DNA of 37,293 bases from a bacterium (GTDB lineage: Bacteria; Bacteroidota; Bacteroidia; NS11-12g; UBA955). Position numbers and translations under genes: made by a program. Under the pieces are notes generated by a model. That model searched no databases, was not told where the DNA came from, and was given only the letters and a program-made list of their open reading frames with translations. The DNA is taken from contig JAQSCZ010000029.1 in NCBI GenBank assembly GCA_029945665.1, positions 1 through 37,293 of the forward strand, given 5' to 3'. Below, in pieces: positions 11,358 to 33,724 of this stretch. Position 1 is the first letter of the stretch. The number at the start of each line of letters is the position of its first letter.

Positions 11358-12253
11358 TAAAACTTCAGTTGTTCATCCTTGTCCCATATTCCCCAATAAG
11401 CACCTGCTAGTCCCTCTGCATCCACCTTCCAACTCTCGTCAAAGGTTGCGAAGTAGAATATTGGAACTTGATCCTTTTCAGACCAAAGTTGGGTATTAAT
11501 AAAATAATCTCTGGCACTTTTTTCTGATGGATAAGCACCCTTTAAATTTTGACCTTGGCTAGGCCAACCAGTTTCGGTAATGATTACTTTTTTACCATTG
11601 CCCGCCAACACGGCTTGGTTATACATCTGTTTCATATAATCGAGGGAATGTTCCACCGGACAACCCTCCCAAAATGGATAACAATTGCAAAGTATAATAT
11701 CACAAAGTTCTGTAATCCTTGGACGGTCCGTAAACTCATAATAGGCATCTACATAACCAAGGGGTATATTCGGAATTTCTGCTTTGGTTTTTCGCATGTA
11801 TTCCAATAATTCATCTTCTGTTAAATCTTTGCGATACATCACCTCATTGCCAACAGAAGCGATGTCAACAAATCCTTCCTTGGCCAACTTAATTAAACCG
11901 TCCAATTCTCGCTGATTTAGCTCAGCATCGTTACCTAGCCATGCACCAACCAATGTTTTTAAACCCATTTCTTTGGCCACAATAGGAACAAATTCATTGC
12001 CCTCAATACACGAAAATGAGCGCACCCATCGTGTATGTGGTTTTATAATCTCCATTCTCTTTCTCACTTGTTCTATCGAGATTATATCCCCAGGTTTTTG
12101 TCCATCTTCGTATATACTGAAGCAAAAACCATGGATCCCATTTTGCATTATTTCAGCAAAAAGGTTATTGAGTGTTTCTTCTGTTTTGCCTTCCACATAA
12201 TTGGAATGTGATTCATGTTTAAATGAAAGGACATGATCTTTTCTGTATGACAT
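11357..12253 (-). CDS. GH17 family beta-1,3-glucan enzyme, no signal peptide (proximal)
   Basis: A 298-residue GH17 TIM barrel. The acid/base glutamate is E137 in ASVGNEVMYR and the nucleophile is E227 in IITETGWPSQG; NCYPFWEG (about 189-196) and FYFATFDESWK near the C-terminus are also typical. Neither a signal peptide nor a lipobox is seen, so a cytosolic location is expected. About 40 residues precede the barrel core (GIHGFCFSIYEDGQKPGD), longer than in the neighbouring GH17. The two enzymes align along their length but are strongly diverged, which argues for different oligosaccharide lengths or linkages rather than redundancy. It lies 25 bp after the symporter gene and is coupled to the next GH17 by TAATG. 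Confidence 0.86.
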   Translation of the reverse strand: MSYRKDHVLSFKHESHSNYVEGKTEETLNNLFAEIMQNGIHGFCFSIYEDGQKPGDIISIEQVRKRMEIIKPHTRWVRSFSCIEGNEFVPIVAKEMGLKTLVGAWLGNDAELNQRELDGLIKLAKEGFVDIASVGNEVMYRKDLTEDELLEYMRKTKAEIPNIPLGYVDAYYEFTDRPRITELCDIILCNCYPFWEGCPVEHSLDYMKQMYNQAVLAGNGKKVIITETGWPSQGQNLKGAYPSEKSARDYFINTQLWSEKDQVPIFYFATFDESWKVDAEGLAGAYWGIWDKDEQLKF

Positions 12254-15207: not shown

Positions 15208-16491
15208 TTAATTCAATTGTTTTGCGGGTGAAAGTTCAGTGTCTTCTATTAAAGCATTCAAGTTTCCGTTATACGTTTTCTGTATGGTGTTGCCATTTCT
15301 GCCTAAGCCTTTAAAAACGCCCTTATCTACCAAAGTCCAAACAACATATTTAGCCTCTCCATTTATTTTAAAGAGTCCAAAATGGTTTTCAGAACCTCCA
15401 GGGTTTTGACTATCTTTCCACTTCTCATCAAAAGCTTCGAAATAGAAGCATGAGATACCTGCTTTGGTGGTCCATTCTCGCATCTTATGATAGTATAATC
15501 CTGCTTTGTATTCGTCACACGCTTTAGAACCCATCTTTCCATAAAGTCCTATTGATGAACTGGCCCAGCCTGTTTCGCCAATGTGCACCTGCTTGCTACT
15601 ATCAATGCTATGGATGTATTGCGCAGCGTTGTTATATTGTTTTTGTGCATAAAGTACCGCTCTATCCATGATAAGTTCCAAAGCTTTGGTTTTAGATAGA
15701 TTTTTTTCAGAGTCTAGGATACCCCAAAATACGGGGTTGTAATGTGTGTCGTGCATTGGGTAAGTATGCAACGATACGTAATCTACAGCTTTAATAAGAT
15801 TTTCCAAATCTTTACAGTGGTAAAGCGAATCTCCACCGCCCCATGAAGCAAAATTATCTGAACAAGTAATCCATAGGCTTGTGTCTAGCTTACTTTCTTT
15901 CTTAAGATTTTGTAAATGATTGACCCATTTTAATATGACCTTAGGTTTCACAAAATAGTTTGTTGCCCATGTTACCATGGCTTCATTGCCGACAGCTATT
16001 ATTTTCACAATATCTGGATATTTATTTGCCAACTCTACGGCACGATTTATCTCTGCATTATTTGCTTCCTCATTTTCCTCATCGTGATTTGGTGCAATGC
16101 CTGTCCAAGCATTTTTACAATCTATCCAAGCACCAAGCATTACGTACATTTCAAAATCTGAATTTTCGGCACTCATCTCACTTATCGCTTGAAGTAGGTT
16201 AGCCGCTTGCTTTTGTTTGGTGTTGTAGGTGCGCACCACTTTGATACCCATTGCAGATAGTATCTTCATATCATCTTTGAGTTGTGATATGGTGGGCTCC
16301 GTTTCTCTCGTAATCTCCCGGTATCCTCCGTAGCTAATAGCCAAGTAGTCGGAATTCCCTAAGATTTGAGAGGCAGTTTTGGTATTATTTAAAGGGCGTA
16401 GTTTATTGCTTTGGTTAGTATGATTACTGCAAGATATTAGAAAAATCGAGAGTAAGATTAAAACACAATATGGCAAACTCAATTTTATCAT
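15208..16491 (-). CDS. GH17 family beta-1,3-glucanase, lipoprotein
   Basis: A 427-residue protein with a lipoprotein signal (about 1-20, FLISC lipobox). A linker of about 30 residues precedes the GH17 TIM barrel, which opens at ISYGGYREITRETEPT. The acid/base glutamate is E170 in IAVGNEAMVTW and the nucleophile is E306 in HIGETGWASS; VSLHTYPMHD and CFYFEAFDEKWKD are further GH17 marks. It is the only one of the three GH17 proteins here with an export signal, so it should act on longer glucan at the outer membrane or in the periplasm while the other two act inside. Its start is only 4 bp after the stop of the large phosphorylase gene. Endo or exo action cannot be decided from sequence. Confidence 0.88.
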   Translation of the reverse strand: MIKLSLPYCVLILLSIFLISCSNHTNQSNKLRPLNNTKTASQILGNSDYLAISYGGYREITRETEPTISQLKDDMKILSAMGIKVVRTYNTKQKQAANLLQAISEMSAENSDFEMYVMLGAWIDCKNAWTGIAPNHDEENEEANNAEINRAVELANKYPDIVKIIAVGNEAMVTWATNYFVKPKVILKWVNHLQNLKKESKLDTSLWITCSDNFASWGGGDSLYHCKDLENLIKAVDYVSLHTYPMHDTHYNPVFWGILDSEKNLSKTKALELIMDRAVLYAQKQYNNAAQYIHSIDSSKQVHIGETGWASSSIGLYGKMGSKACDEYKAGLYYHKMREWTTKAGISCFYFEAFDEKWKDSQNPGGSENHFGLFKINGEAKYVVWTLVDKGVFKGLGRNGNTIQKTYNGNLNALIEDTELSPAKQLN

Positions 16492-16495
16492 TCCA

Positions 16496-19400
16496 TTATT
16501 TCAATATAGTATCATCAATATGCACGATAATTTTGGTAATTTCTCCAGTTCGATTAAAGAGGTGAGCACTCGTTTCAACGTCTAAATGAAGTGAATTATA
16601 GGTGTTCAAAGTTCTATCTTGTTTTTCTATCTCCACTTTGTTTTCCTTAGCCAATCTATAAATAATAGGCACTTGGCAGTAGGTAAAGCAAAGTGAACCA
16701 GGTTCTGGAGCAAATGTTTTATGTTCTTTGAAAATGGTTACATAATGAAACATACGGTCCTGTTTGGTAAACTCATCTTTACGAAGCAAACATGGGTGAA
16801 AATACAAACAACCTTTATTCACAAAAACACCCAACTCACCAAATCTACTTAAAATATCTTCTTTTACCTGACCTGTCATACCGGGCTGTTGAGCGCCTTT
16901 GCCAGCAGGGGTGTGCGAATAGGGGTCAGTTGGAAAGGCACCGTAAAGAGCAGGTGATTTATGCACACCCACACCAGCATTTATCTCGTAGTAATGTTCT
17001 AATAATCCACCGATAACCTCGGCAGTTTCTTTTGTTTCGACTGCCAAAAGACATACTTCTTGTACTGCCAATTGCAGCTTAGAAACCATGTGCCAATAGA
17101 TAGAACCGAGACCTTCGTAGCCATAGAATGTTCCTGAGCGGCCCGTAAATGATTTGTGGTTAAAAACAGCTTCAAAGGTATTTAAAAGCATATTTTTCTC
17201 TTTTTTAATTAAATCTGAATAATCTGAATCAACTAAATTTTCTATGGCAATGCTCAAATCAGCCGCATTTTTAAAGTTGCCATTAAAATGGTAATCTCCT
17301 TTTATATCGCGCTCCACCAGTGAATTATCGCCTGCAGCAAGCATAGCTGTCATGAGCTCAGAGTTTTTGATGGCCTCTTTGGGTATGTTATTCTTCTCCA
17401 AAAACTTGGGAAGTTGCTTGTTTGGATAAAGCAAGTAGCTATATTGGTCGTCGCGGAAAAGGGCACTTTCCTTCATATTGTCCAGTAGTATCAAAGCATT
17501 TTTAGGAGAGAGGTAGCCGGAACTTAGCACTGCAACCTGACCTTCGAGCATTTCACTGAGATAAGATATTGAGACTTCCTTATCATTCTTAATGGTCATT
17601 AAATTATAAGCATGATACATTTTGTCTTCGCGCTCATTGGCTTTTATGGTGTGTTCGATAAATCTCAGACTTACTTTTACGAAACTTCTAAGTCTTCGGT
17701 AAGAAATGGTTCTTTTCTCACCCCAAAAGGCCCGCTTGTATATATGTTCTCTATAGTCGCTTCCAGCTTGTCCTAAATTATCCAGTATTAATTTACGTTG
17801 AACATCACTAATAGAATCTTTAAGCAAATGTTCATTTTCATCAAATACGGCTTGTGTTTTCTTAAAAAAGATAATTAACTCATTGGATAATTCAATGCGT
17901 TCATCAGGGGTATCATCTATTAGTTTTCCGAAAAATATGAGAAACCGTCTGAGGTAGCAGAGTGTCACCATAGATACGCCATTGCCTACTAAAGCATTAT
18001 TGGCATCATTCCATTCCGGACGTTGGGTATTCATCCAGATTCCACCCTCGGGTATAAAGTTGGAGAGTTTAGCTAAAACTGTGGCCAGTATTTTTTCAAT
18101 AAAATTGACGGTGTATATTTTGTTGTCGTCTGCTACCAGTAATGCAGCGTCAGAACCAATAACGTCAATGTTCTTTCTAATTTTAGTATCTAACGCTTCG
18201 TCAAATTCAATCGTGTCTTTCGCATTTTTTAAAATTTCTTTGTAGCTTTTTAACTTGTAGGGTACATTAGCGTAAACAAATAAATCTTCATTAAATTGGC
18301 TACTCAATTGGCCCGGATAATATTGCTCATTGATTTCAAGCAACTTGAGCAGGTAAATAATCTGATGATCTCCCCAATAACCGATGTGTGACCAAGGATT
18401 GTCGTGTTCTATTGTTTCCCAGTCAAAGCCACTTTTGGTTACCCGATAAGGATTATACCCTTCAAAAGTCGTTGCATTCAGGAACTTATGAATCATGCTC
18501 TTTGTGAAAGCAGGATAGGAGAGTGCTAAAGCCTCCCAGTTTTGAAAAATATCTCTCCAATTGCCTTCGTAATCCAAAATTTTTGAATGGTCGATTGCAC
18601 TGCGTGTATTGATAGAAAATTTATTCCATGGTCGACTTGGATCACCGTGTCTTCTGCTAAATTTAAGCGGCATGTATTCTGTACAAAGACGCCTAAAGTT
18701 TTTATCGTCAATTTGGCTAGCTATTTTTTCTAGGTCAAAGGAGGTGAATAAATCAGGAAGGCTGTCTAATACAGCTTTTTGATTTTCGAATACCTTTTTA
18801 TTCGATGCGGCAAGGTAATTTCTCAAATCCCATTTTTCAATTTGATAATTGAAATCGAAAATACCACCTCTCATTATGTTGAAAAGGGTATTAGAAAAGT
18901 GGCGTGTATCTCTGAAAACATCTGCCGATAGTTGCATACCATCAGAAGAGGCAACAAGGTCTATCAATCGCTTAGAACCAAGTTCTATATCTTCCTCAAT
19001 CTTTGTTCTTAAGGCTTTGTTGGTTTGAATTTCATTGATAAGATAAACGACATTTGCTTGGCTTTGATTGACATCGGCGACTATCATCCAGCTTTTTTTG
19101 CTCGCAGGGGCTAAGGTAATTGCTGAGTTTATGAAATAGGCCCCTTTTTCAGCTTTGATATCTTCTTCTTGGGTTACAGCAGATCCTTTTCTAAAGGCAT
19201 CGAGTTGCAGCGAAGAAACCAGGTATTTAGGATTATCTAACCCTAAAGACCAAGCGATGTTGGCTTTAAGTGCCTCACTCGGCTCTGCTTTATCTACAAT
19301 GATCGCACTAAGTGCGAATATGCCCAACCCCGATGAGGTGTCAAGCTCATTGCGTTTGTAGGCATCAACTAGGTTACTGGTGCTGTTTTGTAAGTCGCTG

Positions 19401-19948
19401 CTAACACCGTCAGGCATTATATTTTGAATACCGTCGAGTATATTTATTGTCAGTGCTTGATCACCTTTATTTTCTAAAGAAGATTTTCGAACAAATCCAA
19501 AGAAATCACTTGAGTTCCACTCATATCTGAAGGTAAGGGCAAAGTTGTGATTGATTTCTTCGAAAATTATTTTGTTTCCAATGTTGTTTTTGTAAAGATT
19601 TCTTGTGGTGTGATATAAACCTGCATTTCGCTCTGAAAATGGCTCCCATACATGGGTTGCACCGTTTTGAATAATCTGAAATATTGACTTGCCTCCGGTG
19701 GTGTCATAGGATTCGGTAATTTTATCAACTGTATAATAAGGAAATAATGCGTATTCTGCATTCTTACGCCCAGCTGAGAGCGCTCCATTGCTCGAGATAA
19801 ACATCCAATGATGTGAATCGCTCACCACACTCATAAAAAAAGGACGCATTTCATCATAGTTGTAAATACAATAGAAGTTTTCTCCTTCTATTTTTAGTCT
19901 TTTGATTTCTATATGAGATTCTTCTTTTGTTTTTTTTTGACCTGTCAT
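16496..19948 (-). CDS. Beta-1,3-oligoglucan phosphorylase, GH149-like
   Basis: A 1150-residue protein with no signal peptide, therefore cytosolic. The N-terminal third is a beta-sandwich of GH94-like type (AGRKNAEYALFPYYTVDKI, FSERNAGLY, GVSSDLQNSTSN). The middle is an (alpha/alpha) helical barrel. RPEWNDANNALVGNG carries the likely catalytic aspartate D648 in the WND motif, shared in form with GH94 phosphorylases; HIGYWGDHQ lies earlier. It is longer than GH94 cellobiose phosphorylases (about 800) and fits GH149, whose bacterial members are about this size; GH161 is the alternative. The reaction is reversible phosphorolysis of beta-1,3-gluco-oligosaccharides to glucose-1-phosphate. The cluster with GH16, GH17, GH30 and a symporter agrees. 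The upstream gap is 235 bp, the largest within the cluster. Confidence 0.83.
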   Translation of the reverse strand: MTGQKKTKEESHIEIKRLKIEGENFYCIYNYDEMRPFFMSVVSDSHHWMFISSNGALSAGRKNAEYALFPYYTVDKITESYDTTGGKSIFQIIQNGATHVWEPFSERNAGLYHTTRNLYKNNIGNKIIFEEINHNFALTFRYEWNSSDFFGFVRKSSLENKGDQALTINILDGIQNIMPDGVSSDLQNSTSNLVDAYKRNELDTSSGLGIFALSAIIVDKAEPSEALKANIAWSLGLDNPKYLVSSLQLDAFRKGSAVTQEEDIKAEKGAYFINSAITLAPASKKSWMIVADVNQSQANVVYLINEIQTNKALRTKIEEDIELGSKRLIDLVASSDGMQLSADVFRDTRHFSNTLFNIMRGGIFDFNYQIEKWDLRNYLAASNKKVFENQKAVLDSLPDLFTSFDLEKIASQIDDKNFRRLCTEYMPLKFSRRHGDPSRPWNKFSINTRSAIDHSKILDYEGNWRDIFQNWEALALSYPAFTKSMIHKFLNATTFEGYNPYRVTKSGFDWETIEHDNPWSHIGYWGDHQIIYLLKLLEINEQYYPGQLSSQFNEDLFVYANVPYKLKSYKEILKNAKDTIEFDEALDTKIRKNIDVIGSDAALLVADDNKIYTVNFIEKILATVLAKLSNFIPEGGIWMNTQRPEWNDANNALVGNGVSMVTLCYLRRFLIFFGKLIDDTPDERIELSNELIIFFKKTQAVFDENEHLLKDSISDVQRKLILDNLGQAGSDYREHIYKRAFWGEKRTISYRRLRSFVKVSLRFIEHTIKANEREDKMYHAYNLMTIKNDKEVSISYLSEMLEGQVAVLSSGYLSPKNALILLDNMKESALFRDDQYSYLLYPNKQLPKFLEKNNIPKEAIKNSELMTAMLAAGDNSLVERDIKGDYHFNGNFKNAADLSIAIENLVDSDYSDLIKKEKNMLLNTFEAVFNHKSFTGRSGTFYGYEGLGSIYWHMVSKLQLAVQEVCLLAVETKETAEVIGGLLEHYYEINAGVGVHKSPALYGAFPTDPYSHTPAGKGAQQPGMTGQVKEDILSRFGELGVFVNKGCLYFHPCLLRKDEFTKQDRMFHYVTIFKEHKTFAPEPGSLCFTYCQVPIIYRLAKENKVEIEKQDRTLNTYNSLHLDVETSAHLFNRTGEITKIIVHIDDTILK

Positions 19949-20183: not shown

Positions 20184-21014
20184 TTATAATTCTTTGTAAA
20201 CTCTAACATAATCAATAGACATGGAGACTGGAAAGCGGGTGTTAGCTGTTGGGTTACCAGCAAAACCTCCTCCTACTGCAACATTAAGCAAAAGGAAAAA
20301 AGGTTGCGTATACACCCATTCTCCGGCTGCATCAGATGGCGTAACGCGTTTATAAAGGTTGTCATTTAGAAAAAAATCTATATAGTTCTCACCCCATTCT
20401 ACAGAATAGGTATAGAATTCTGTATCAAAACGACCATTCAGGAGTCTATAAGAGTTTGTTATGGCATTTCCACCATAATAGTCTGGGCCATGAAGGCTTC
20501 CATAGGTTATGAAAGGTTCTTGTCCTTTTTGTTCCATGATATCAATTTCTCCGCATTTCGGCCATCCCACAGCACCTATATTCTCACCAAGCATCCAAAA
20601 TGCAGGCCATATCCCTTGGCCTGAAGGTGTTTTTATACGGGCTTCTATTTTGCCAAACTTTTGGGTAAATATACCCTCTGTTTTTAGGCGCGCTGAAGTG
20701 TAACCTCCAGCAGGGTTTTTGATCACTTTGATCACCAGATTACCATTGCCATCTTGCGAAACATTTTCTGGAGCTTTCGTATAGGTTTGGAGTTCATTAT
20801 TTCCCCAGCCATTTGAACCTGTTCCAATATCATACGTCCACTTTGTGGCATCAGGTAGAGAATTAATAGCCCCATCAAATTCATCACTCCACACCAAAGT
20901 ATAATTTCTTTTAGGTAAATTTTGCTTCGGCTCTACCTTACAGCTTGCAAGGAATGCAACTAATACAATTAAAAACTGCGTTTTAACCATTGTGTTTTGC
21001 GTTAATTTATTCAT
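20184..21014 (-). CDS. GH16 family endo-beta-1,3-glucanase (laminarinase-type), lipoprotein
   Basis: A 276-residue protein with a lipoprotein signal (AFLASC lipobox, C25 counting from 21014). A cleaner start could be the Met at residue 9 (MVKTQF). The remaining roughly 250 residues are a single GH16 beta-jelly-roll: LVWSDEFDG at the N-terminus, WGNNELQTYT, SGQGIWPAFWMLG, then the catalytic GEIDIMEQKG with nucleophile E156, D158 and acid/base E161, and SIDYVRVYKEL at the end. The insertion-containing EIDIME form is that of bacterial laminarinases and lichenase relatives. It should cut beta-1,3-glucan internally at the outer membrane. It lies 24 bp after the glycan-binding lipoprotein gene. Confidence 0.9.
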   Translation of the reverse strand: MNKLTQNTMVKTQFLIVLVAFLASCKVEPKQNLPKRNYTLVWSDEFDGAINSLPDATKWTYDIGTGSNGWGNNELQTYTKAPENVSQDGNGNLVIKVIKNPAGGYTSARLKTEGIFTQKFGKIEARIKTPSGQGIWPAFWMLGENIGAVGWPKCGEIDIMEQKGQEPFITYGSLHGPDYYGGNAITNSYRLLNGRFDTEFYTYSVEWGENYIDFFLNDNLYKRVTPSDAAGEWVYTQPFFLLLNVAVGGGFAGNPTANTRFPVSMSIDYVRVYKEL

Positions 21015-21038: not shown

Positions 21039-22445
21039 TTATTTATGAAAATATATATTATCTAAAATAAAATCGGGCCCCCCAGTTATAATTAAAGCGC
21101 CAAGGTTATTTTTCTGATTTAGGATATTTCCTCCTAAGGGAATATCAAATGACTTCCATACCCCCGTTTGAAAACCACTTAAGCTCGTTCTATAGTCTTT
21201 ATCGTCGGCTATAGGAAAGCCGGTATTAACATCAGTTTCTAAGATTTTATTTGCTCCTATGTCCCTAATTTGTATTCCAATTGTGGCAGCTGGATTTTGG
21301 ACATAAGCGTCAATGTGAAGAAAACCTAATGCAGCGGCATCTATAGGATTTATAAATATTATACCAGTATAATTATTATTGGTATACTGCAATACGGCTC
21401 CACTGCTTGTGTTGAGCAATGTAGTTTGGGTGGTAGATCCCCCAAATCCAGGCGCATAGTTGATCTCTGTCGCTTTTATATAACTTTCGCTAAATAAAGA
21501 CTTTACATCAACCTGGGCATAAGGTGGAGTAGGGGCTGCTGGCAAATTTCCGGATGACTTTATAATTAACTTACCGTCCGACGCAAAACCACCTAAAGAT
21601 CCTGTAATTTCTGCAGTACCGGTTCCTATAACACTGATTTCACCTAGTTCGTTGATTTTGGCTACCGAGGTATCAGAACTCAAAAAGGTGTAGTAATTTG
21701 CAGCACCCAGCACGGTTATATCCTGGCCATTTACAAGATTAAATAGTTGATTAAGTCCAGATAGCAGAATAGTAGATCCTACGAAGGTATTTACTGTGGT
21801 TGTGGTACCGCCTAAAATATTAGATTTTACTGGAAGTATATTGCCTAGTTTCTCAAATTTTATTTCGTCAAACCAAAGCGTGTATCCAGCACCACCAGTG
21901 CCATTACTTCCAGCCGCAAACCAAAATACACCTCTTTCTTCTAAAAGTTTTGAAGCCATAGGAATAGGTATAGTAACTTTCGACCAGCTTGTGCCGACAT
22001 TTACATTTTGGGTTGAAACTTTGTATTTATCCTTTATGTAGTCTATACCAAATCCTACCTCGCCAAGAACGACGCCCTGTGAAGCTTTTACATAAAACGT
22101 TAAAGCATCGTATTTTGTTAAGTTTCTGCCTGCACCATCCACTCTGAAGATAGCACCTGCATAACTGCCTGTAGGGTCGGTAGCGTTTGGCACATCTATT
22201 CTTATAGATGAATTGCTTTGAAAACCTTGCGTATTATCCACAGAAAATACATCTGGTTTTGCATCAGCAAAAGGGAAATAAAAATCTGTTCCCAATCCAA
22301 TAAAATTATCGGTAAATACCTCTGCAGTTGTTGAAAATGTTGGTAAGACAGCATCGTCGGATATTTTTCTTTCACAACTTACCATAAAAGCTATTATGGT
22401 AGCTCCAAGAACTGCCTTAAAAGAATATTGATTTAATGTACTCAT
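21039..22445 (-). CDS. Multi-module glycan-binding-type lipoprotein
   Basis: A 468-residue lipoprotein (lipobox ending FMVSC, cysteine about 24, then ERKISDD). Three parts are visible. The first is an N-terminal jelly-roll of carbohydrate-binding type (about 40-205: YAGAIFRVDGAGRNLTKYDALTFYVK, ending in LWFDEIKFEKLG). The second is a short bacterial Ig-like (Big_2-type) region (about 215-300: YYTFLSSDTSVAKINELGEISVIGTGTAEIT). The third is a C-terminal module (about 305-468: APTPPYAQVDVKSLFS... GVWKSFDIPLG... FILDNIYFHK) of the kind duplicated in the secreted protein at 29791-31659. There are no catalytic motifs. It occupies the operon position where a surface glycan-binding protein is expected, directly after the glycosidase-barrel gene. 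The binding role is inferred. Confidence 0.72.
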   Translation of the reverse strand: MSTLNQYSFKAVLGATIIAFMVSCERKISDDAVLPTFSTTAEVFTDNFIGLGTDFYFPFADAKPDVFSVDNTQGFQSNSSIRIDVPNATDPTGSYAGAIFRVDGAGRNLTKYDALTFYVKASQGVVLGEVGFGIDYIKDKYKVSTQNVNVGTSWSKVTIPIPMASKLLEERGVFWFAAGSNGTGGAGYTLWFDEIKFEKLGNILPVKSNILGGTTTTVNTFVGSTILLSGLNQLFNLVNGQDITVLGAANYYTFLSSDTSVAKINELGEISVIGTGTAEITGSLGGFASDGKLIIKSSGNLPAAPTPPYAQVDVKSLFSESYIKATEINYAPGFGGSTTQTTLLNTSSGAVLQYTNNNYTGIIFINPIDAAALGFLHIDAYVQNPAATIGIQIRDIGANKILETDVNTGFPIADDKDYRTSLSGFQTGVWKSFDIPLGGNILNQKNNLGALIITGGPDFILDNIYFHK

Positions 22446-22496: not shown

Positions 22497-25400
22497 TTAA
22501 TTATTGATATTTATCTGAATATAGGTTCTGAATTCCCATTCGTTTCCATTCGGGAAACCAAATGCTGTTGGATCAGGAACCAAAACGCCTGCATTGTTTA
22601 ATTTTTCAGTAGGAGAATATCTGTTTGAGTAATCATCAAGCGTTCGGTATGTGCATCTAAATCCTAATTTGGTGCCTGGCATCAAAAACCAATCTGGTTT
22701 GCCTACTTCTATTGACCAATCCCCAATAAGCTGAAGCGGGAATGTTTGGTTAAAATCTCTGTGGTAATCAAATGGCCCCCAATCATTAAATCTGGCGATA
22801 GTTGTAAGTTTCATCTTTTTGTAGATTGTCCTAATATCAAATCCAAGTCGATTGATGATTCTTTTATCATTACCATTTGCTTGACCGTTGCCATAATATA
22901 GGTTTCCAATAATTCCAAAATCATGATTTATTTTAGATACCATTCTAACATTGGCTTCCCATAAGTCATGGGCTGGCACTGAACCCGGAAAAACGAAGGT
23001 GGTACGACCATTTCCTAAAATACCTATGCCTGCATCCATCACTGTAGGCAGGTGGCGATATACAAAATCTGCACTCATAGCAAACTTTGCATCTTCCATT
23101 CTGTCATTGTCCCATTCATACATCCATGTGGCTGGTGTTGGATCATACGTAAGTAAGAGCTCTCCACCAACGGTTTCTCTGTTTCCTCTAACAGAGAAAG
23201 GATCATCTAATATATTTCTTGGACGAGCAGGAGCTGCAAAAGTAGAACTTATTGGACCTGCTAAAGGTTTTTGATAGAGGAAATTCGGCGCAATTTGGAT
23301 TTTACCAACGTTGTAGGTAAATCCTGTCAGTGCATTGTACATATTTCCACTGCCTACATCCTTGAGTCTCCATCCTGTAAAAGTCTTTGTTTGGTCAACA
23401 CCACCGTTGGCAACTAGTCCCATATACGAAGCAAGGCCATACCAGCGAATTGCTCCAGTGGAGTAGGTAAGTTTCATTTTGCCTCCGAAATTATCTGAAC
23501 TTTGTATTTTATCTTGGTAAACAACATCATCTTGTATTAATTGGAAGGTTCTTCCGTTAAGGGGCTGACCTCCCCAAATTCCACCTAAATCAAATGTGAG
23601 TTTCTCCGTCTTCTTGCTAATAGTTAATGTTGCTTTTCTTGTTTTTGGCACAGGAACAGCAAATGAACTTTGTAAATTATTCCTTTGTGTTATATCGTTA
23701 TGGAAAATCCCAGTGATGTCCAATCCAGCAATTTTTCTACTATACTTTAAGAGCAAAGCAGGGTTAGCTCCCCACCACAATTCTGGACCGAAAGCAAGTT
23801 TTAAACCTTTAATCTGTTTCTTACCCTCCATTTCAAACCCAAAAGGGGCATTGCCATTGTATATGTCGATATTTGGTCCATAATTGGCCTCAGGATACAG
23901 GCCAAAGAAATCACCCTCATATCCCCAATGGTAGTGGCCTGTTCTGTAAAAGCCCGTTAGTTTAAAATCCTTGGCATCCCAACTATAACTTGCTTTATAT
24001 AGTTGTACTCGGTTATTCGAACTGATTTGTTGTGGTCCATTAGAGGTCTGCACTGTTATTGGTCTTCCTCTGTTTTCATAGAAAATTTCATCGATGGGGT
24101 TTAAAGCAACATTACCTAGAATATTGAACTGTACATTGGCTTTCATATTGGGTGCTGGTCTTGCTGTTACTCCAACATTGAAAGACTCCATGTGGTCAAA
24201 ACCTTTACTCCTTGGATAAGTCGTAGTTAAAGGATTGGCAGTTGTTGGCGTTGTTATAAGACTGCCCCCAGTTTGGTAGGTATTAAAATTGGCCTGAAAA
24301 TTACTGAAATACAATTTACCTCTATCTTTCGACTCAAGCACCGCTTTATCGCCACGCGCTTTTAAAGTTGCATCTGCAATAGAAATACTGCCAAACAAAG
24401 CATTAGCAGTGGTAGCATTTTCAGTGTACGGATTAAATTGATGTATATCTTTCAATGCGTAGTATGCAGCACGCGGATATAGCTCATAGGTGCCGCGCTC
24501 ATTAGTTGAGCCTTTGGCGCAAATCCCGAACCATTCTTCATTCATGTTGTTTTCACCCAACTTAAAATCATTTTGGTAGCCACCATTCGACCAAGAAGCA
24601 GTAACATCATGTTCATCTAAATTTATAGTTTGACCTGTTTTCCACCAGCCATCGCTAAACTGAAAGGTGAAACCTCCCAAACTGTTTTCATTTTTACCCA
24701 TTCCATTGGCATTCATATAAATTTCCTTCCAATTGCTTAACAACACTTTTGTTTGGTATTCTTGATCTTCTTGGTTTGTTAGCGTGTTAAATGCATCACA
24801 ACCAAATTCTGTGAGAATTATAGGCTTATTTAGTTCTTTCTTTACTCTATCATACAAGTCAGTAAAAGTAAGGCCTCGGTAACTATTGATTCCCAGAATA
24901 TCAATATCTGTGCACTCTTTGGCAATAATATCAGCAAATAGCAAGTCACCATTACAAATGGCCATCGGATGGTTGGCATCTATTGCCTTCAATTCTTTTA
25001 CTGCATCATTAAAAAGTTTATATAAACCGTAGGCAGCTTGGGTTGACTTTCTGTCGGCCATTGGAACATTCTCAGTTTCAGCACCTCTCCAAAAAAGCCC
25101 ATAATTATTTTCGTTGCCTAATAAAAACAACAAAACCCCAGGTGTTTCTTTGTATTCTAAAACCATGGCTTTTGTTTCCTTCAGCAAAATCTCTCGAACG
25201 TTCGGATTAGAATAATCGGTATTAGGTTCCCACTTGCCATTTATAGTTAATCCATAGCGGCCAAATGAGTGATTTAGCATTGTATAAATTCCATACTTCT
25301 CATAAATATATTTGACCCATTTAGGGGGCACACCAAGGTATTGGCGAATAACATTTACGCCCATGTTTTTGAGTAACGACATTTCATTGTCCAATGCCAT

Positions 25401-25616
25401 CATGATTACATCGTCCGATTGGTTCCATAAACTGTAGTTGTAATTGGTTCCAATGGGTTGGTAATCCCAATTCATTCCATTAATGAACACATCTTTACCA
25501 TTTGCCGAAAGTTTAAATCCATTGCCCGTTTTAATTACTTCCACTTTGCTATTTTGAGCAAATGTAAAGTGGAAAGTAAAAAAGAGAAGTGTTAGAAAAA
25601 GTACATTTTTTACCAT
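22497..25616 (-). CDS. Clan GH-A glycosidase fused to an outer-membrane beta-barrel
   Basis: A 1039-residue protein with a signal peptide (1-20, cleavage after TFA). Residues about 28-400 form a GH2/GH5-like TIM barrel (FINGMNWDYQPIG, NVIRQYLGVPPKW). The likely acid/base is E169 in LFLLGNENNYGLFW and the nucleophile is E270 in KPIILTEFGCDAF. From about 410 to the end the sequence changes to alternating hydrophobic/polar strands rich in Tyr, Trp and Gly with polar loops, such as KLAFGPELWWGANPALLLKYSRKI, and the last strand WEFRTYIQININN. This is what an outer-membrane beta-barrel of roughly 16 or more strands looks like. No TonB box or plug is seen. It is the first gene of the cluster, with no SusC/SusD partner. 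I infer an enzyme-porin that trims and admits glucan oligosaccharides; the exact GH family is not assigned. Confidence 0.78.
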   Translation of the reverse strand: MVKNVLFLTLLFFTFHFTFAQNSKVEVIKTGNGFKLSANGKDVFINGMNWDYQPIGTNYNYSLWNQSDDVIMMALDNEMSLLKNMGVNVIRQYLGVPPKWVKYIYEKYGIYTMLNHSFGRYGLTINGKWEPNTDYSNPNVREILLKETKAMVLEYKETPGVLLFLLGNENNYGLFWRGAETENVPMADRKSTQAAYGLYKLFNDAVKELKAIDANHPMAICNGDLLFADIIAKECTDIDILGINSYRGLTFTDLYDRVKKELNKPIILTEFGCDAFNTLTNQEDQEYQTKVLLSNWKEIYMNANGMGKNENSLGGFTFQFSDGWWKTGQTINLDEHDVTASWSNGGYQNDFKLGENNMNEEWFGICAKGSTNERGTYELYPRAAYYALKDIHQFNPYTENATTANALFGSISIADATLKARGDKAVLESKDRGKLYFSNFQANFNTYQTGGSLITTPTTANPLTTTYPRSKGFDHMESFNVGVTARPAPNMKANVQFNILGNVALNPIDEIFYENRGRPITVQTSNGPQQISSNNRVQLYKASYSWDAKDFKLTGFYRTGHYHWGYEGDFFGLYPEANYGPNIDIYNGNAPFGFEMEGKKQIKGLKLAFGPELWWGANPALLLKYSRKIAGLDITGIFHNDITQRNNLQSSFAVPVPKTRKATLTISKKTEKLTFDLGGIWGGQPLNGRTFQLIQDDVVYQDKIQSSDNFGGKMKLTYSTGAIRWYGLASYMGLVANGGVDQTKTFTGWRLKDVGSGNMYNALTGFTYNVGKIQIAPNFLYQKPLAGPISSTFAAPARPRNILDDPFSVRGNRETVGGELLLTYDPTPATWMYEWDNDRMEDAKFAMSADFVYRHLPTVMDAGIGILGNGRTTFVFPGSVPAHDLWEANVRMVSKINHDFGIIGNLYYGNGQANGNDKRIINRLGFDIRTIYKKMKLTTIARFNDWGPFDYHRDFNQTFPLQLIGDWSIEVGKPDWFLMPGTKLGFRCTYRTLDDYSNRYSPTEKLNNAGVLVPDPTAFGFPNGNEWEFRTYIQININN

Positions 25617-25670: not shown

Positions 25671-28600
25671 TTGAAATGTCTGGGGAAAACAATTTTTAAA
25701 TTAATTGGTTTAAAAATTTTTAACGAATGTATAGAAAGGATGTATCACTCACCAAAAAAAATACTACAACTCTACTACATCAACATTAATTATTATTACA
25801 TTTACAAACTAAAAGTTAGCATTATAACTCACTTAAGCCAAAATATTATTTTTAAACGCAGGGTTGGTAAAATATTTTTTACGGCCATCCTTACCATGCT
25901 TTACGCATTTAGTAGCATTGGCCAACCACCTATAGGAAATGCAAAAGTATCCCTATTTACCAAATCTGAGTATGCTGCAGGTACTCAAAATTGGGACATT
26001 GAACGCGACAACTTTGGCAGGCTATTCATTGCCAATAATGAGGGCCTTTTGGTTTATAATAGCATTAATTGGCAACTGTACCCAGTTCCCAATAAAACCA
26101 TTTTAAGATCAATTGCCTTCGGAACCGATGGAAAATTGTATGCAGGTGCGCAAGATGAATTTGGTTATTATGCAGCGGATAATTTCGGGCGACTTGAATA
26201 CACCTCGCTCAAGAATCTATTACCAAAATCAGTAAATTCATTCGCAGATATTTGGAATATTGAAGTATTGGACGATGAAATATTTTTTATGGCCTCTGAG
26301 TTGATTTTTAGATTTGCTAATAAAAAACTGACCTATTATAAGCCTCAGTCTAAATGGCTATCACTCAAAAAACACCATCATAAATTATTGGCCCAGGATG
26401 ACAAAAGAGGTTTATTGATATATCACAATGGGCAATGGGAGACCATGATTAATCAAAATTATTTACCTCCCGGATTTCAGATAACAGATATTAAACCTTT
26501 CAGTAAAGACACTAGTTTAGTAAGCACTGCAGGCAATGGTTTGTTTCTTTTAACACAAAATTCTCTCCTTCCATTTTTAGTTAAAAATATCAATTTAGAA
26601 CAGCATTTTACCTCTTTAGAAGTTTTGGATAAAACAAGTTATTTGGTTGGAACCTATAATGCAGGCCTCTATAAAATTAATCGAAATGGAAATTTAGTAG
26701 GTAAAATTTCATCAACCAATGGTTTCATAAGCAATACCATCCATTGCACTTATACTGGATTTGATGGATGTACATGGATTGGATTAGATAATAGCATTGC
26801 GCTTGTGGATTGGAACTATCCTATAAGTCACATCAATCCCGTTTCTTTTAACAATGGGAGTGGACAAGGGGTCATTCACTTTAACAATGAATTATATTTT
26901 GCCTTGTCAACGGGTCTGCAGTGGGCACCGCTTCTAAAAAATACCGATTTGGGACAGGTCTCTATCGAGCCTAAAACTATTTTAAATGGTCTAACCTGGA
27001 ATCTCTCTGTTTTGGGCAATAAAGTTTTAGTCGGTCGTGATGATGGTTTGTGGACGGTTTCAGAACATATCGCAACCAATATTTCTCAATCATCAGGTTT
27101 TTGGACGTTTAAACCGCTCCTAACTGCAACACCTGCAAAAATTGCTTGTGGTAATTATTTAGGTATCCAAATATTTAAGGAAGAAGCGGGTAAACTTATC
27201 AATGAAGGCATTATCAATGATTTTACTGAATCAAGTCGATATCTCGAGGTGGATGACCAAGCTATTTGGGTATCGCACCCTTACCATGGCTTATTTAGAA
27301 TAGGTTTGAAGGATAATAAGATTACAAAATATACAAAACAAAATGGTTTGCCTACCGATTTAAATAACCATGTTTTTAAATTGAAGGGTAAAATTGTATT
27401 TGCAACAAAAAAGGGTATCTATGAATTGGATAATTCAGGTATGAAAATCGTTCCCTCTCCATATTATCAAAATTTATTTGGTATGCGACCGATACGCTAT
27501 TTGAAAGAAGATTCAACAGGCAATATTTGGTTTGTGCAAGAGAAAATGTTAGGTGTGGCCGATTTTAAGGCAACAAAACCTGTCATTAAATATATACCCG
27601 AATTATACAATCATATATTGAGTGGGTTTGAAAATATTTTTTCGTATGATAAAGAAAACATACTGGTTGGATCTGATGTCGGTTTTTACAACATCAATTA
27701 CAAGGCATACAGTGAGAAGCCACTCTCATTTGTAACCTACGTAAGCAACGTTAAAATATTTGGCAATGGCGATTCTATTATTTATGGCGGATTTAATAAG
27801 AACCTAAGCGGTAAGACGCTTAATGTTTCGATTCCCTACAAATCCAACTCAATCCATTTTTCTTTTGCCTCTTCATTTCTAAGGTATAAGCCTTTAACAG
27901 AATTCAGCTATTATTTAGAAGGGTATGAGACAAATTGGAGTGATTGGGGGTTTCAAGATGGCAAGGAATACACCAACCTTGGTGAAGGAAATTATATTTT
28001 CCATTTAAAATCAAGATATGGTCCATCTAATGAATTCAAGGATTTCACCTATTCCTTTAGAATCGAAGCGCCTTGGTATCGGACCATTTGGGCTTACCTT
28101 GGTTATTTTTTAGTACTTGCTTTGGTTATTTATGGTTTGCTTAGATGGCAGAAAATAAAGTTCTATAAGAAAGAGCAAAGTCGCATGCTAGCCGCCAAAG
28201 TTAAATTTGAAGAAGAACAACAACAAATAAACTATAAATACCAGCTTGAGATTGAGAAAAAGGAAAGGGCCATCATTCAACTAATGAAAGAAAATTTAGA
28301 AACTGAACTTCACCACAAAAATGAAGAACTTGGAAGTTCAGCAATGAATTTATTGCAGAAAAAGGCATTTTTAGGGAAAATAGCAGAAGAATTAAACAAA
28401 GTATATTTGCCAATAAAGGATCATGTGGATGCTTCGGAAATTAAAAAAATAATTCGCCGCCTAAGTTCAGAAGAAAAATTAGATGGGGAATGGAAACAAT
28501 TTTCAATTCATTTTAACAATGTGCATAGTAATTTTTTAATAACACTAAAAAATGCGTTTCCCGATCTTAATGCACACGATATGAAACTTTGTGCTTACTT

Positions 28601-28769
28601 GAGAATGAATTTATCAAGTAAGGAAATAGCACAACTTTTAAGTATATCTGTAAGGGGTGTAGAAATAAGTAGGTACCGCTTACGCAAAAAATTAAAGATG
28701 CAATCTCATGAAGATTTATTTCAATTTTTATTTAATCTTCATCCTACTGAAAATATCACCTTTGATTAG
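25671..28769 (+). CDS. One-component sensor/regulator: propeller, Y_Y_Y, LuxR-type HTH
   Basis: A frame of 1032 residues from 25671. After a signal-like segment (VGKIFFTAILTMLYAFSSIGQ, about 65-85) come about 600 residues of regulator-propeller blades (RDNFGRLFIANNEGLLVYN, FGTDGKLYAGAQDEFGYY, GCTWIGLDNSIALVDW). A Y_Y_Y domain (about 690-795, FSYYLEGYETNWSDW), one membrane helix (about 806-826), a coiled coil (about 840-910) and a C-terminal LuxR-type helix-turn-helix (about 969-1015, LSSKEIAQLLSISVRGVEI) follow. No kinase is present, so a periplasmic signal should pass straight to DNA binding. The start is uncertain: AAGGA precedes 25671, another ATG is at 25740, and operator A would lie inside the frame. 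No ATG, GTG or TTG follows until 25896. It is divergent from the glucan operon and its likely activator. Confidence 0.85.
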   Translation: MKCLGKTIFKLIGLKIFNECIERMYHSPKKILQLYYININYYYIYKLKVSIITHLSQNIIFKRRVGKIFFTAILTMLYAFSSIGQPPIGNAKVSLFTKSEYAAGTQNWDIERDNFGRLFIANNEGLLVYNSINWQLYPVPNKTILRSIAFGTDGKLYAGAQDEFGYYAADNFGRLEYTSLKNLLPKSVNSFADIWNIEVLDDEIFFMASELIFRFANKKLTYYKPQSKWLSLKKHHHKLLAQDDKRGLLIYHNGQWETMINQNYLPPGFQITDIKPFSKDTSLVSTAGNGLFLLTQNSLLPFLVKNINLEQHFTSLEVLDKTSYLVGTYNAGLYKINRNGNLVGKISSTNGFISNTIHCTYTGFDGCTWIGLDNSIALVDWNYPISHINPVSFNNGSGQGVIHFNNELYFALSTGLQWAPLLKNTDLGQVSIEPKTILNGLTWNLSVLGNKVLVGRDDGLWTVSEHIATNISQSSGFWTFKPLLTATPAKIACGNYLGIQIFKEEAGKLINEGIINDFTESSRYLEVDDQAIWVSHPYHGLFRIGLKDNKITKYTKQNGLPTDLNNHVFKLKGKIVFATKKGIYELDNSGMKIVPSPYYQNLFGMRPIRYLKEDSTGNIWFVQEKMLGVADFKATKPVIKYIPELYNHILSGFENIFSYDKENILVGSDVGFYNINYKAYSEKPLSFVTYVSNVKIFGNGDSIIYGGFNKNLSGKTLNVSIPYKSNSIHFSFASSFLRYKPLTEFSYYLEGYETNWSDWGFQDGKEYTNLGEGNYIFHLKSRYGPSNEFKDFTYSFRIEAPWYRTIWAYLGYFLVLALVIYGLLRWQKIKFYKKEQSRMLAAKVKFEEEQQQINYKYQLEIEKKERAIIQLMKENLETELHHKNEELGSSAMNLLQKKAFLGKIAEELNKVYLPIKDHVDASEIKKIIRRLSSEEKLDGEWKQFSIHFNNVHSNFLITLKNAFPDLNAHDMKLCAYLRMNLSSKEIAQLLSISVRGVEISRYRLRKKLKMQSHEDLFQFLFNLHPTENITFD
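25724..25787 (-). promoter_or_regulatory. Conserved promoter/operator module A (glucan operon)
   Basis: The module is shared with 31696-31764. A TAnnTTCG box on the minus strand (25724-25731) lies about 108 bp before the glycosidase-barrel gene. Upstream of it are a block around ACCAAAAAA (25751-25759) and the repeat pair ACTACA and CTACATCAA (25775-25783). On the minus strand TGTAG occurs twice, 11 bp apart, one helical turn. The distance from CGAAnnTA to CTACATCAA is 51 bp in both copies. I infer the binding site of the local activator next to the promoter. Confidence 0.6.
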
Positions 28770-29790: not shown

Positions 29791-31659
29791 TTATTCTACT
29801 ATTAGTTTTGAAGTATTTTGACCTTCTGCAGTAGTTGTTCTTAAAAAGTAAACACCAGTGCTAAGGCTAGAAATATCTAAATCAACAGTTTTAGAATCAG
29901 CATTTAAAGTAAGTACAATCTGACCTAAATTATTAATGACATTAACCATTTTGATTTCTTTATCTGAAGTAATTGTAACCACATCAGAAGCAGGAATAGG
30001 ATAAATATTAACGCTAACGACATTCAAACTATTGATAGAAGAAGCTGCTTTTCTATACAATACGTTATCAATAAACACTGTACCAGTACCAGTAGGATTT
30101 CCAACAAAAATCAATTGTCCGATATGTGATTTGTTGGTTAAACCTGTAAAGCTTGACAATGGGATATCGTAAGTATTCCAGCTGTTCAATGTAGGAGCTG
30201 TTAAAGTTAATTCGAATTCTGTATCATCTCCACCTGCAACTGCTCCATCGGCACCAAAATCAACTAATTTTACTTTGAATGCCGTTAAATTAGGTGTCCA
30301 AGCATTCAAGTAGAAATTCGTCATGGTTGAAGCATTAATTAGATTTGCACCAGTTGTTTCAACACCCACAAAATCAAGTGTAGAATATTTCTTGGTATCG
30401 TTGCCTGCAATCTGAAGATCTGTTAAAGTAGCAGCTGACCAGCTTGTGCGCCAAGTGTCAACATTGGCATTGGTGTATGCATTGCTAAACATTGAAATGA
30501 CATCTGTAGCAAGAAACGTTGGAGTAGGGGCAGCTGTTTGAGGGGTATTAGGATCTGTAACAGGTCCTTTGTGATAAAATACATTGTCTACATAAACTGA
30601 TCCACCACCTGCAGGGATGCAACTAAAAATTAACTGACCAATATGTTGTTTGGTGGTTAAACTTGTAAAATCAGAAAGTGCAAGATCAAAACTGTTCCAA
30701 CCATTTTGAGTAGGCGTTACACTTACTTCATGTTCTTTATCATCAGTGCCACCAACAGCAGCATCTGCGCCAAAATCTACAATTTTAACTCTAAAGGTTG
30801 TGATATCTGGCGTCCAAATATCGATGTGGAAATAGAGCATCGAAGAAATATCAATAAGGTTTGCACCCGTTGTTTCAATGCCAACATAGTCTAAAGAAGA
30901 ATATTTTTTGGTATCGTTACCTGCAATCTGCAAATCAGTAAGTGTTGCTGCAGACCAGCTGGTTCTCCAAGTGTCTACATTAACATTTGTATAGGCATTA
31001 CTGAACATTGAAATCACATCGGCAGCCAATCTGGTTGGAGTTGGTGCAGCCGTTGTTGGCGCAGTTGCCGTTCCAGCGCTGAAAGTGATATTGTCAAAAT
31101 AACAAACATTTGAATCAGATCTGGTTTGAAAATCAGGGAACACAATAATTTGGTCAATGTCGGTAGATGAAGACTCACCAATTTTACCTGCAAAGTTAAA
31201 CGTCAACTCTTCCCATTCGTTTATTTTGGTGTTAGCCACCTTAATTTCACCTGTAGAAGCGCCTGAATTGGTGGCGAATTTTATACCAACGTCACTCTTT
31301 ACTGATTTGTAAACCATTATTTTAATGGTAGAATTTGAAGCACTAAGCGTAAACTTTCCAATGTCGGCATGTGCACATTCCAATCCTGCATAAGGTTTGC
31401 CGTCTAATAAGGCCGTAAATTTAGCAACGTTAGAAGACGTATTAATCCCGCTCGATGAAGGATTAGATACTACCTTTAGCGGTGGATTGATTGAATTTTC
31501 AAAAGTGGTCCAGGTCCATGATGCACCGTTGCCACCCGATTCAAAATTAATTGGAGCATTCTGTGCAAATGCACCCATCGATCCCATCATAAAGATGTAG
31601 AAAGCCAGTTTTTTAAACACACTGGCGTGTGACTTGTTTGTTTTGTAATTTTTTTTCAT
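29791..31659 (-). CDS. T9SS-secreted multi-module carbohydrate-binding-type protein
   Basis: A 622-residue protein. An N-terminal signal segment (LAFYIFMMGSMGAFAQ, ending about 33) leads to three beta-sandwich modules. The first (about 35-195, APINFESGG... VCYFDNITFS) is unlike the others. The next two are a tandem duplication of about 172 residues each (about 205-375 and 377-545) that share blocks such as DVISMFSNAYTN, VDTWRTSWSAATLTDLQIAG and HIGQLIF and end in VDNVFYHK or IDNVLYRK. The last roughly 75 residues (NIYPIPASDVVTITS... STGVYFLRTTTAEGQNTSKLIVE) are a T9SS type A sorting domain. No catalytic residues are seen. It is probably a secreted or cell-surface glucan-binding protein; a related module ends the lipoprotein at 21039-22445. 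It has its own promoter module B and terminator. Confidence 0.8.
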   Translation of the reverse strand: MKKNYKTNKSHASVFKKLAFYIFMMGSMGAFAQNAPINFESGGNGASWTWTTFENSINPPLKVVSNPSSSGINTSSNVAKFTALLDGKPYAGLECAHADIGKFTLSASNSTIKIMVYKSVKSDVGIKFATNSGASTGEIKVANTKINEWEELTFNFAGKIGESSSTDIDQIIVFPDFQTRSDSNVCYFDNITFSAGTATAPTTAAPTPTRLAADVISMFSNAYTNVNVDTWRTSWSAATLTDLQIAGNDTKKYSSLDYVGIETTGANLIDISSMLYFHIDIWTPDITTFRVKIVDFGADAAVGGTDDKEHEVSVTPTQNGWNSFDLALSDFTSLTTKQHIGQLIFSCIPAGGGSVYVDNVFYHKGPVTDPNTPQTAAPTPTFLATDVISMFSNAYTNANVDTWRTSWSAATLTDLQIAGNDTKKYSTLDFVGVETTGANLINASTMTNFYLNAWTPNLTAFKVKLVDFGADGAVAGGDDTEFELTLTAPTLNSWNTYDIPLSSFTGLTNKSHIGQLIFVGNPTGTGTVFIDNVLYRKAASSINSLNVVSVNIYPIPASDVVTITSDKEIKMVNVINNLGQIVLTLNADSKTVDLDISSLSTGVYFLRTTTAEGQNTSKLIVE

Positions 31660-31695
31660 GCTTATATATCATTAATCGGCTTTCATACCGAAAAA

Positions 31696-31764
31696 CGAAT
31701 TTAGCGGTAGGTGTATTCACTTACCAAAAAAGGCACTACATCTCTGCTACATCAATCTGCAATT
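31696..31764 (-). promoter_or_regulatory. Conserved promoter/operator module B (secreted binding protein)
   Basis: Second copy of the module at 25724-25787. A CGAATTTA box (TAnnTTCG on the minus strand, 31696-31703) lies 37 bp before the start codon. Farther upstream are TGTATTCACTTACCAAAAAA (31712-31731), ACTACA, CTCT and CTACATCAA (31747-31755). The spacing between box and CTACATCAA is 51 bp, exactly as in copy A. TGTAG again repeats at 11 bp on the minus strand. A regulatory role is inferred from conservation and position. Confidence 0.65.
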
Positions 31765-32075: not shown

Positions 32076-32110
32076 TTATTTAAATTAAAATTTTAACCCA
32101 TACTTTCATT

Positions 32111-33724
32111 ATGAATCATACAATTTTGCGGTATTGCCTTTGGTTTTTATTCCCGTTTTTTGCCAATTCTCAAACAATAATGGACGATTTTGAAGGAAAT
32201 GGTAATATAGGCACCTGGAAAGGTGATGATTGTTTTATCAATACCAATTTACAAAATCCGTTTATATCGAGCGCCAATAGCTCACTTAAAGTATTAGAAT
32301 ACCAAGACAATGGCGGTTTATATGCCAATATTCGTTTCGACTTAACCAAAAACCTCGATTTATCTAAAGAGAGTGTATTTTCATTTAAAATCTACATTCC
32401 ATCCAATAAGCTCTCTGGCAAACAAACCAATCAAGTGTCGCTTAAATTGCAAGATGGCAAAATTGCAGAACCATGGTCTACCCAATCAGAAATTATTAAA
32501 CCACTGCTTTTAGACCAGTGGCAAACGGTTACATTTGATTTTATAAAGGATAATTATAAGAATTTGAACGGTGGTTCGCTGCCGCCTTCGCAAAGAAAAG
32601 ATTTTAACCGAGTACTTATTCAGGTAAATGGCGAAAACAACAACGACAGTGTTTTAGCCTATATCGATGATTTTGAATATGTTAAAACAGCTCCACCAGG
32701 TTCCTTGTATACCAAACTCGTTTGGGCAGATGAGTTTGAGACCCTTGGCGCCGTAAATTCGGATAAATGGTTTCCGCAAACACGCTTGCCTTTATCGGGG
32801 AGTTGGTACAATGGAGAAATTCAACATTACACCAATAGAATAGACAATGCAATTGTTGAGAATGGTATTTTAAAGGTAATTGCAAAAAAGGAAACCTTTA
32901 CCGACCAAGGTTATACCAAGCAGTATACCTCTGCCAGACTCAATTCTAAGTTCGCATTTAAATATGGTAGAGTAGAGTTTAGGGCGAAACTTCCTTCGGG
33001 TGTAGGCACTTGGCCTGCTGTTTGGATGCTAGCTAAAAACATTGATGAAAACGGCGCTTATTGGGATAATTTAGGTTTTGGAAATACCGCTTGGCCGGCT
33101 TGTGGCGAAATAGACATTATGGAGCATTGGGGGCAAAATCAAAATTTTGTGCAAAGTGCAGTGCATACCTCTTCAAGTTTTGGAAATACTTGGAATTTGG
33201 GCGGACAAGTAATCAATACAGCTTCAACTGCTTTTCATGTTTACACGCTCGAATGGACCCCAACCAAATTGATTTTTAGTGTGGATTCTAATATCCATTA
33301 TACCTACGAGCCTGCTACCAGAGATAACAATACTTGGCCTTTTGATGCCGAGCAATATTTGTTACTCAATGTTGCATTGCAATCAAACATCAGCGCTTCT
33401 TTTACCCAAGGTGCTATGGAAATCGATTATATCAGAGTGTACCAAGAAAACACCACCAGTTCATTGGCATCCAATGATACCAAAAACCCAGTGTTTTATC
33501 CAAATCCTATAACCAACGAACTCACCATTATAACAGAAAATACCACCGAAAAAATGGTACCTGTTCAGATTTATACGGCAGATGGCCAATTGGTCGTGTC
33601 AAACAACTATGCGTTAAACAACAATCAAATAGTTATTAGCGATCTTAATATGTTAAATACGGGGGTTTATATTGTAAACTATACCTTAGGCAATCAGCAT
33701 ATTAGATTCAAAATTGTGAAGTAA
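32111..33724 (+). CDS. T9SS-secreted GH16 family endo-beta-1,3-glucanase
   Basis: A 537-residue protein. The signal peptide is about 1-20 (LWFLFPFFANSQ). The N-terminal module of about 170 residues (MDDFEGNGNIGTWKGDD... LAYIDDFEYV) is a jelly-roll of carbohydrate-binding type. GH16 catalysis follows (about 200-450): KLVWADEFETLG, WYNGEIQHYT, SGVGTWPAVWMLA, and CGEIDIMEHWG with nucleophile E333, D335 and acid/base E338, closing with MEIDYIRVYQE. The last roughly 75 residues (FYPNPITNELTIIT... NTGVYIVNYTLGNQHIRFKIVK) are a T9SS type A sorting domain. It should be released or displayed outside the cell and make the first endo cuts, complementing the lipoprotein GH16 at 20184-21014. It is transcribed alone, divergent from the secreted binding protein. 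Confidence 0.9.
   Translation: MNHTILRYCLWFLFPFFANSQTIMDDFEGNGNIGTWKGDDCFINTNLQNPFISSANSSLKVLEYQDNGGLYANIRFDLTKNLDLSKESVFSFKIYIPSNKLSGKQTNQVSLKLQDGKIAEPWSTQSEIIKPLLLDQWQTVTFDFIKDNYKNLNGGSLPPSQRKDFNRVLIQVNGENNNDSVLAYIDDFEYVKTAPPGSLYTKLVWADEFETLGAVNSDKWFPQTRLPLSGSWYNGEIQHYTNRIDNAIVENGILKVIAKKETFTDQGYTKQYTSARLNSKFAFKYGRVEFRAKLPSGVGTWPAVWMLAKNIDENGAYWDNLGFGNTAWPACGEIDIMEHWGQNQNFVQSAVHTSSSFGNTWNLGGQVINTASTAFHVYTLEWTPTKLIFSVDSNIHYTYEPATRDNNTWPFDAEQYLLLNVALQSNISASFTQGAMEIDYIRVYQENTTSSLASNDTKNPVFYPNPITNELTIITENTTEKMVPVQIYTADGQLVVSNNYALNNNQIVISDLNMLNTGVYIVNYTLGNQHIRFKIVK

Follow-up and report, generated by a model that had tools for sequence, protein, structure and literature searches.

A glycosidase joined to a predicted outer-membrane barrel in beta-1,3-glucan loci of Bacteroidota

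Described routes of glucan uptake

Few carbon pools turned over by bacteria are as large as laminarin, and predictions of which bacteria import which glycan draw on SusC/SusD proteins. An N-terminal functional domain joined to an outer-membrane porin is reportedly found in Cyc2, a fused cytochrome-porin that is said to serve in electron transfer, not in glycan processing. Gene clusters without susCD are filed as "CAZyme clusters" (e.g., PMC10108472). GH149 clusters without susCD were noted in 2018, and the passages on these CAZyme clusters and PULs give the same gene set as the locus described here (PMC5827456). A laminarin cluster of Muricauda, in the passages devoted to that PUL, begins with a LuxR gene, carries a gene labelled "GH2 beta-glycosidase" ahead of GH16 and GH149, and also contains GH17, GH30, and MFS genes; it is syntenic with a laminarin-induced cluster of Formosa (PMC13188888, 2026). 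Neither the passages on GH149 clusters nor those on the Muricauda PUL mention a barrel. Finally, a bloom study recorded laminarin PULs of the type "GH149-GH0-GH30_1-GH17", with GH0 ranking among the top 10% by expression in a single genome (PMC10108472). The published "GH2" and "GH0" of laminarin PULs, compared here by description only, may be members of the fusion family reported below, the "GH2" probably so.

The closest described parallel in design is the MFS-GH17 fusion of Formosa, for which coupled cleavage and uptake have been proposed (PMC6246565). Like the protein described here, it combines a transporter and a laminarin enzyme in one chain, in the same pathway and with the same proposed logic, but it differs in having a helical inner-membrane transporter and an enzyme of another family. 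No description of the present enzyme-barrel fusion was found in the open-licence literature.

The system encoded in the window analysed here, a 37,293-nucleotide stretch of bacterial DNA, resembles a SusC/SusD system (TIGR04056, PF07980) in possessing an outer-membrane barrel, an adjoining gene for a surface-type lipoprotein, a glycan locus, and a SusR-like regulator. It differs in that the barrel has neither a plug nor homology to SusC/SusD, that an enzyme is joined to the barrel, and that the partner is a CBM/BIG2 protein instead of SusD.

The fusion protein and its predicted barrel

The fusion is a single frame of 1039 aa on the minus strand (22497..25616), delineated by its ORF, Pfam matches, a structure model, Foldseek, and strand analysis. 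The first-pass annotation had placed it correctly, without giving either its strand or the membrane side of its enzyme. A signal peptide lacking a lipobox (residues 1-20; 25557..25616, minus strand; predicted from sequence to be cleaved after FTFA and before Q) leads straight into a clan GH-A TIM barrel (residues 23-390; 24447..25550, minus strand). The catalytic residues of this domain, E169 (LGNENNY) and E270 (LTEFG), are invariant across 65 homologs and are also retained in 14 homologs that lack the barrel, in agreement with the earlier description of this domain. PF02836, the GH2 TIM domain of Pfam, matches residues 72-304 with 26.7 bits against a cut-off of 21. This is the sole GH2 match of the fusion, with neither the sugar-binding N-terminal domain nor the Ig-like domain of GH2 found by Pfam or in the model. 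A GH72 match falls below the curated Pfam score (25.2 bits against 25.9).

Foldseek searches of the PDB returned GH158, GH157, and Gas2 (GH72) for the enzyme part, and FepA, PfeA, BtuB, OprC, MOMP, and AlgE for the C-terminal part, the matches being assigned to enzyme or barrel by the nature of the targets and not by the aligned ranges. For the enzyme domain, GH158 is both the best fold match and the best profile match, the latter (E=1.3e-5) covering part of the domain at positions 133-319. The fused enzyme resembles the GH158 endo-beta-1,3-glucanases (BuGH158, 6pal; GH158(Pro), 9oro) in fold, profile, and beta-1,3-glucan context, but it is 12-14% identical to them, and no barrel-fused GH158 was found. 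A sequence search found no solved relative. By analogy with GH158, whose members are endo-acting, the final trimming of glucan that had been proposed for this enzyme is just one possibility for its chemistry.

A linker with two predicted helices, helical over 401-430, follows the enzyme (residues 391-434; 24315..24446, minus strand) and is the least conserved part of the fusion, with an entropy of 1.94. Beyond it, the remainder of the protein (residues 435-1037; 22506..24314, minus strand) was modelled as long antiparallel strands from a 65-sequence alignment (mean pLDDT 75.5, pTM 0.60), which was used in place of a single-sequence prediction with a pLDDT of 30.6. The strands number 24, a count made by eye from the DSSP string of the pTM 0.60 model that may be off by two. 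Hydrophobic alternation in the barrel strands exceeds that of within-strand shuffles by 6.5 SD, versus -0.6 SD for strands of the enzyme domain, and the connections between barrel strands alternate strictly between long and short, with medians of 25.5 and 2 aa. The hydrophobic strand face consists chiefly of F, L, Y, I, A, V, and W, and the inward face chiefly of N, G, T, K, R, S, D, Q, and E; inward residues are the more conserved of the two (entropy 0.89 vs 1.23, p=0.0005). Several long loops, among them 558-591 (aromatic), 612-618, and 946-958, are near-invariant (entropy 0.18-0.30), a property that is unusual in loops at the cell surface and would fit contact with a ligand.

Across 32 aligned homologs, the barrel sequence is 53-83% identical to that of the window, a degree of retention indicating that the barrel is more than a chance feature. 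No Pfam family matched the barrel, no plug or TonB-receptor family of Pfam or NCBIfam, including TIGR04056, matched the fusion, and the organism's own genome contains no second copy related to the barrel. The C-terminal part is therefore predicted to be an outer-membrane barrel of about 24 strands without a TonB plug, as the first-pass annotation had surmised from some 600 residues of strand pattern, and its suggested structural check came out in favour of a barrel rather than against it. In known barrels, the long loops lie outside the cell, and the periplasmic side bears the short turns together with both termini. Given the even strand count and the position of the short turns, which face the same way as the termini, the fused enzyme most likely sits in the periplasm, a probable placement relative to the barrel that is read from topology.

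Partner lipoprotein, gene neighbourhood, and occurrence

Immediately downstream of the fusion is a gene for a lipoprotein of 468 aa (21039..22445, minus strand), in which the lipid-anchor residue, Cys24, precedes a run of acidic residues. The Cys is invariant in its relatives, with E-R and acidic residues after it in most cases, and BIG2 and CBM11/CBM30-like domains are found among these relatives. By a crude lipobox pattern, the mean number of acidic residues at +2 to +9 is 2.7 for the partner; SusD has 3.7, and the lipoproteins of GH17 and GH30 type have 0.9. The acids after the Cys suggest that the partner is surface-exposed, and it looks like a surface glycan-binding protein.

A CBM/BIG2 lipoprotein lies directly downstream in 153 of the 154 fused loci with enough sequence for the call, versus none of 11 barrel-less loci (p=3e-16). 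On the tree, all five independent pairs agree with this pairing (sign-test p 0.0625). This contrast argues that barrel and lipoprotein form a unit, apparently one resembling SusC plus SusD, the pairing being genetic. The first-pass annotation had missed the partner, which makes the analogy that it drew with SusC/SusD far stronger. The sole exception among the 154, locus L151 of genome G144, has an 816-aa gene in the partner's place, with GH149, GH30, and MFS genes upstream.

As originally noted, the fusion heads a beta-1,3-glucan locus. Past the partner, and likewise on the minus strand, domain matches identify a GH16 lipoprotein, a putative surface laminarinase (20184..21014); a GH149 1,3-beta-glucan phosphorylase without a signal peptide, placed in the cytoplasm (16496..19948; NF058639, 1765.5 bits); a likely periplasmic GH17 lipoprotein (15208..16491); a beta-1,6-glucanase-like GH30 lipoprotein (13725..15203); an inner-membrane GPH/MFS sugar symporter (12279..13709); and two GH17 proteins without signal peptides (11357..12253 and 10434..11357). 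Divergent from these, on the plus strand, is a regulator of SusR-like layout, with a Reg_prop propeller, Y_Y_Y, and a LuxR-type HTH (25671..28769; true start probably ~25896). Among 180 annotated loci, the genes commonly run as regulator, fusion, CBM lipoprotein, GH16, GH149, GH17, GH30, and GPH symporter. Scans for promoters and terminators remained at background.

Two proteins with T9SS tails lie beside the regulator (29791-33724) and probably serve this system outside the cell. One, with CBM11-like domains, is similar to the partner lipoprotein (29791..31659, minus strand); the other is a secreted GH16 with a CBM and a T9SS sorting tail (32111..33724, plus strand) that is likely part of the same regulon.

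A scan of reference genomes matched at least 585 stretches, and 576 of those listed were confirmed as relatives. The architecture is widespread, with 166 fused loci ranging from Flavobacteria to Kapaibacteria and named hosts in Flavobacterium, Chryseobacterium, Chitinophagaceae, Saprospiraceae, Bacteroidales, Cytophagales, and Kapaibacterium, although some of the record titles are doubtful metagenome labels. In 395 Bacteroidota genomes, the enzyme domain was present in 43 and the barrel in 35; all 35 also possess the enzyme, and a barrel without the enzyme was never found. The architecture is genuine, conserved, and apparently overlooked in Bacteroidota. Frames of 1040-1090 aa with 20-28% identity were considered as distant fusions and rejected, their similarity falling at residues ~340-500 of the frame, as in ordinary GH2 enzymes.

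Barrel-less copies are nested among the fused ones, and at least seven changes are required on a tree whose root was not inferred. This nesting makes it likely that the barrel has been lost repeatedly from fused enzymes, within the limits of an unrooted tree. A degenerate barrel-like stretch lies in the frame downstream of a barrel-less enzyme gene in genome G119 (contig C314, ~3390-3611, locus L132), with 36% identity and one stop. It resembles the start of the barrel, as expected of loss, and suggests that the loss in G119 was recent. At several barrel-less loci (L126, L127, L132, L133, L135, and L140), a divergent upstream gene of ~350 aa replaces the SusR-like regulator, and in L126 and L127 its product has a LacI-type N-terminus.

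SusC/SusD and passage across the outer membrane

Scans of the window recognised neither SusC nor SusD. The organism's genome, 98.8% complete, contains no match to PF07980, the one SusD model used, and no SusC above the TIGR04056 cut-off, with 12 weak TonB-receptor-like matches elsewhere; the reported lack of the pair at this locus was thus upheld. Profiles built on a genuine SusC/SusD pair detected the two at 20 of the 134 fused loci that have at least 6 kb upstream, and not at the other 114. An earlier motif search of 80 loci, run without a positive control, had detected none. In 27 sampled genomes with the fusion, PF07980 was absent from five and some SusD was present in 22. All 20 loci with SusCD belong to one family (f5), which is probably Flavobacteriaceae, as judged from its diversity. 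SusC and SusD there stand directly upstream of the fusion in one colinear cluster. At L141-L144, L180, L182, L183, L187, and others, one or two extra genes lie between SusD and the fusion; they are often 450-770 aa in length and mostly of an unlabelled family, and perhaps encode a second surface glycan-binding protein.

The tabulation of SusCD at related loci, which the first-pass annotation had called for, gave a mixed answer. SusCD occurs near five of eight barrel-less enzymes versus 20 of 134 fused ones (Fisher p=0.0045 without tree correction), and several barrel-less loci read SusC, SusD, (other genes), GH16, enzyme, GH149. After tree correction, the association still points the expected way (2.9 of 5 pairs vs 0.1) but is not significant (median p 0.25). 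The proposal that the fusion takes the place of SusC/SusD accordingly agrees with the 114 loci that lack them and the five genomes without PF07980, but strict replacement was rejected, since 20 loci carry both.

The reading that we favour, at a probability of roughly 0.6, is that the fusion forms a channel for glucan in the outer membrane, carries its own enzyme, and works with its partner as SusC works with SusD, alone or alongside them. Prediction or comparison shows the architecture, the barrel fold, the linkage, the conservation, and the absence of SusCD; from these we infer its substrate, direction, and energetics, and the side and activity of its enzyme, as follows. GH16 enzymes at the surface would cleave beta-1,3-glucan, and the partner lipoprotein, anchored on the outside, would bind the fragments and deliver them to the mouth of the barrel. 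Oligosaccharides would then traverse the barrel, whose lumen is polar and conserved and has no TonB plug. The GH158-like GH-A domain of the fusion would cleave them immediately on reaching the periplasm, blocking back-flow and making net entry irreversible without TonB; such enzyme-driven trapping is suggested by the periplasmic placement and the missing plug. The GH17 and GH30 lipoproteins would shorten the products, the GPH symporter would import them, and GH149 would phosphorolyse them in the cytoplasm. The fullest form of this proposal, a plug-less, TonB-independent importer that has a CBM/BIG2 lipoprotein of its own and owes net import to prompt cleavage by the periplasmic glycosidase fused to it, as a second SusCD-equivalent machine across Bacteroidota, is put forward tentatively, with the odds somewhat against it.

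The fusion may instead be an auxiliary, as the 20 loci with both systems suggest: an accessory passage, inward or outward, for small oligosaccharides, with the main import carried out by TonB-dependent transporters elsewhere or, in f5, by the adjacent SusCD. The shared direction of SusC-SusD and fusion at these loci is in keeping with such a role, as is the presence of some SusD in most fused genomes, but PF07980 is missing from the window's own genome and five others, and most lineages have no SusCD in the sampled locus. We regard an accessory role as unlikely.

It is less probable still that the barrel mainly anchors or displays the GH-A enzyme on the surface in the manner of an autotransporter, with the linker helix passing through the pore and uptake left to other proteins. 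The order of N-terminal enzyme, helical linker, and C-terminal barrel is that of an autotransporter, and order alone leaves sidedness unsettled. However, type V barrels have 12 strands in ~300 aa, against about 24 in ~600 aa here, without a family match, and an export barrel would not be expected to have a lumen so polar and conserved or long loops that hardly vary. The poor conservation of the linker and the disappearance of the lipoprotein whenever the barrel is gone also speak against display. Finally, synthesis or export of glucan, with the enzyme editing polymer on exit, could be read from the GH72 fold (GH72 enzymes are transglycosylases) and the export barrel AlgE among the Foldseek matches, but is highly improbable beside the catabolic GH149, GH30, GH16, GPH symporter, and SusR-like regulator, and with no glycosyltransferase recognised in domain scans of the window.

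Taken as a whole, the glucan channel favoured here suggests that many Bacteroidota possess an overlooked route for the uptake of an algal storage sugar. If the barrel-lipoprotein pair is an importer, many "CAZyme clusters" would be complete uptake systems that current surveys overlook, raising the question of whether enzyme-coupled trapping can stand in place of TonB energy for glycan uptake. New here are the lipoprotein pairing, the probable periplasmic side of the enzyme as read from topology, and the nesting of barrel-less copies among fused ones, with SusCD more often at the barrel-less loci before tree correction.

Elsewhere, the window (1583-3731 and 7911-9077) encodes two adjacent fatty acid desaturases and, nearby, a lipoprotein of the arylsulfotransferase (ASST) family. 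At the contig end (35411-37273), PLD-like nuclease and ResIII helicase domains mark a possible defence or restriction gene.
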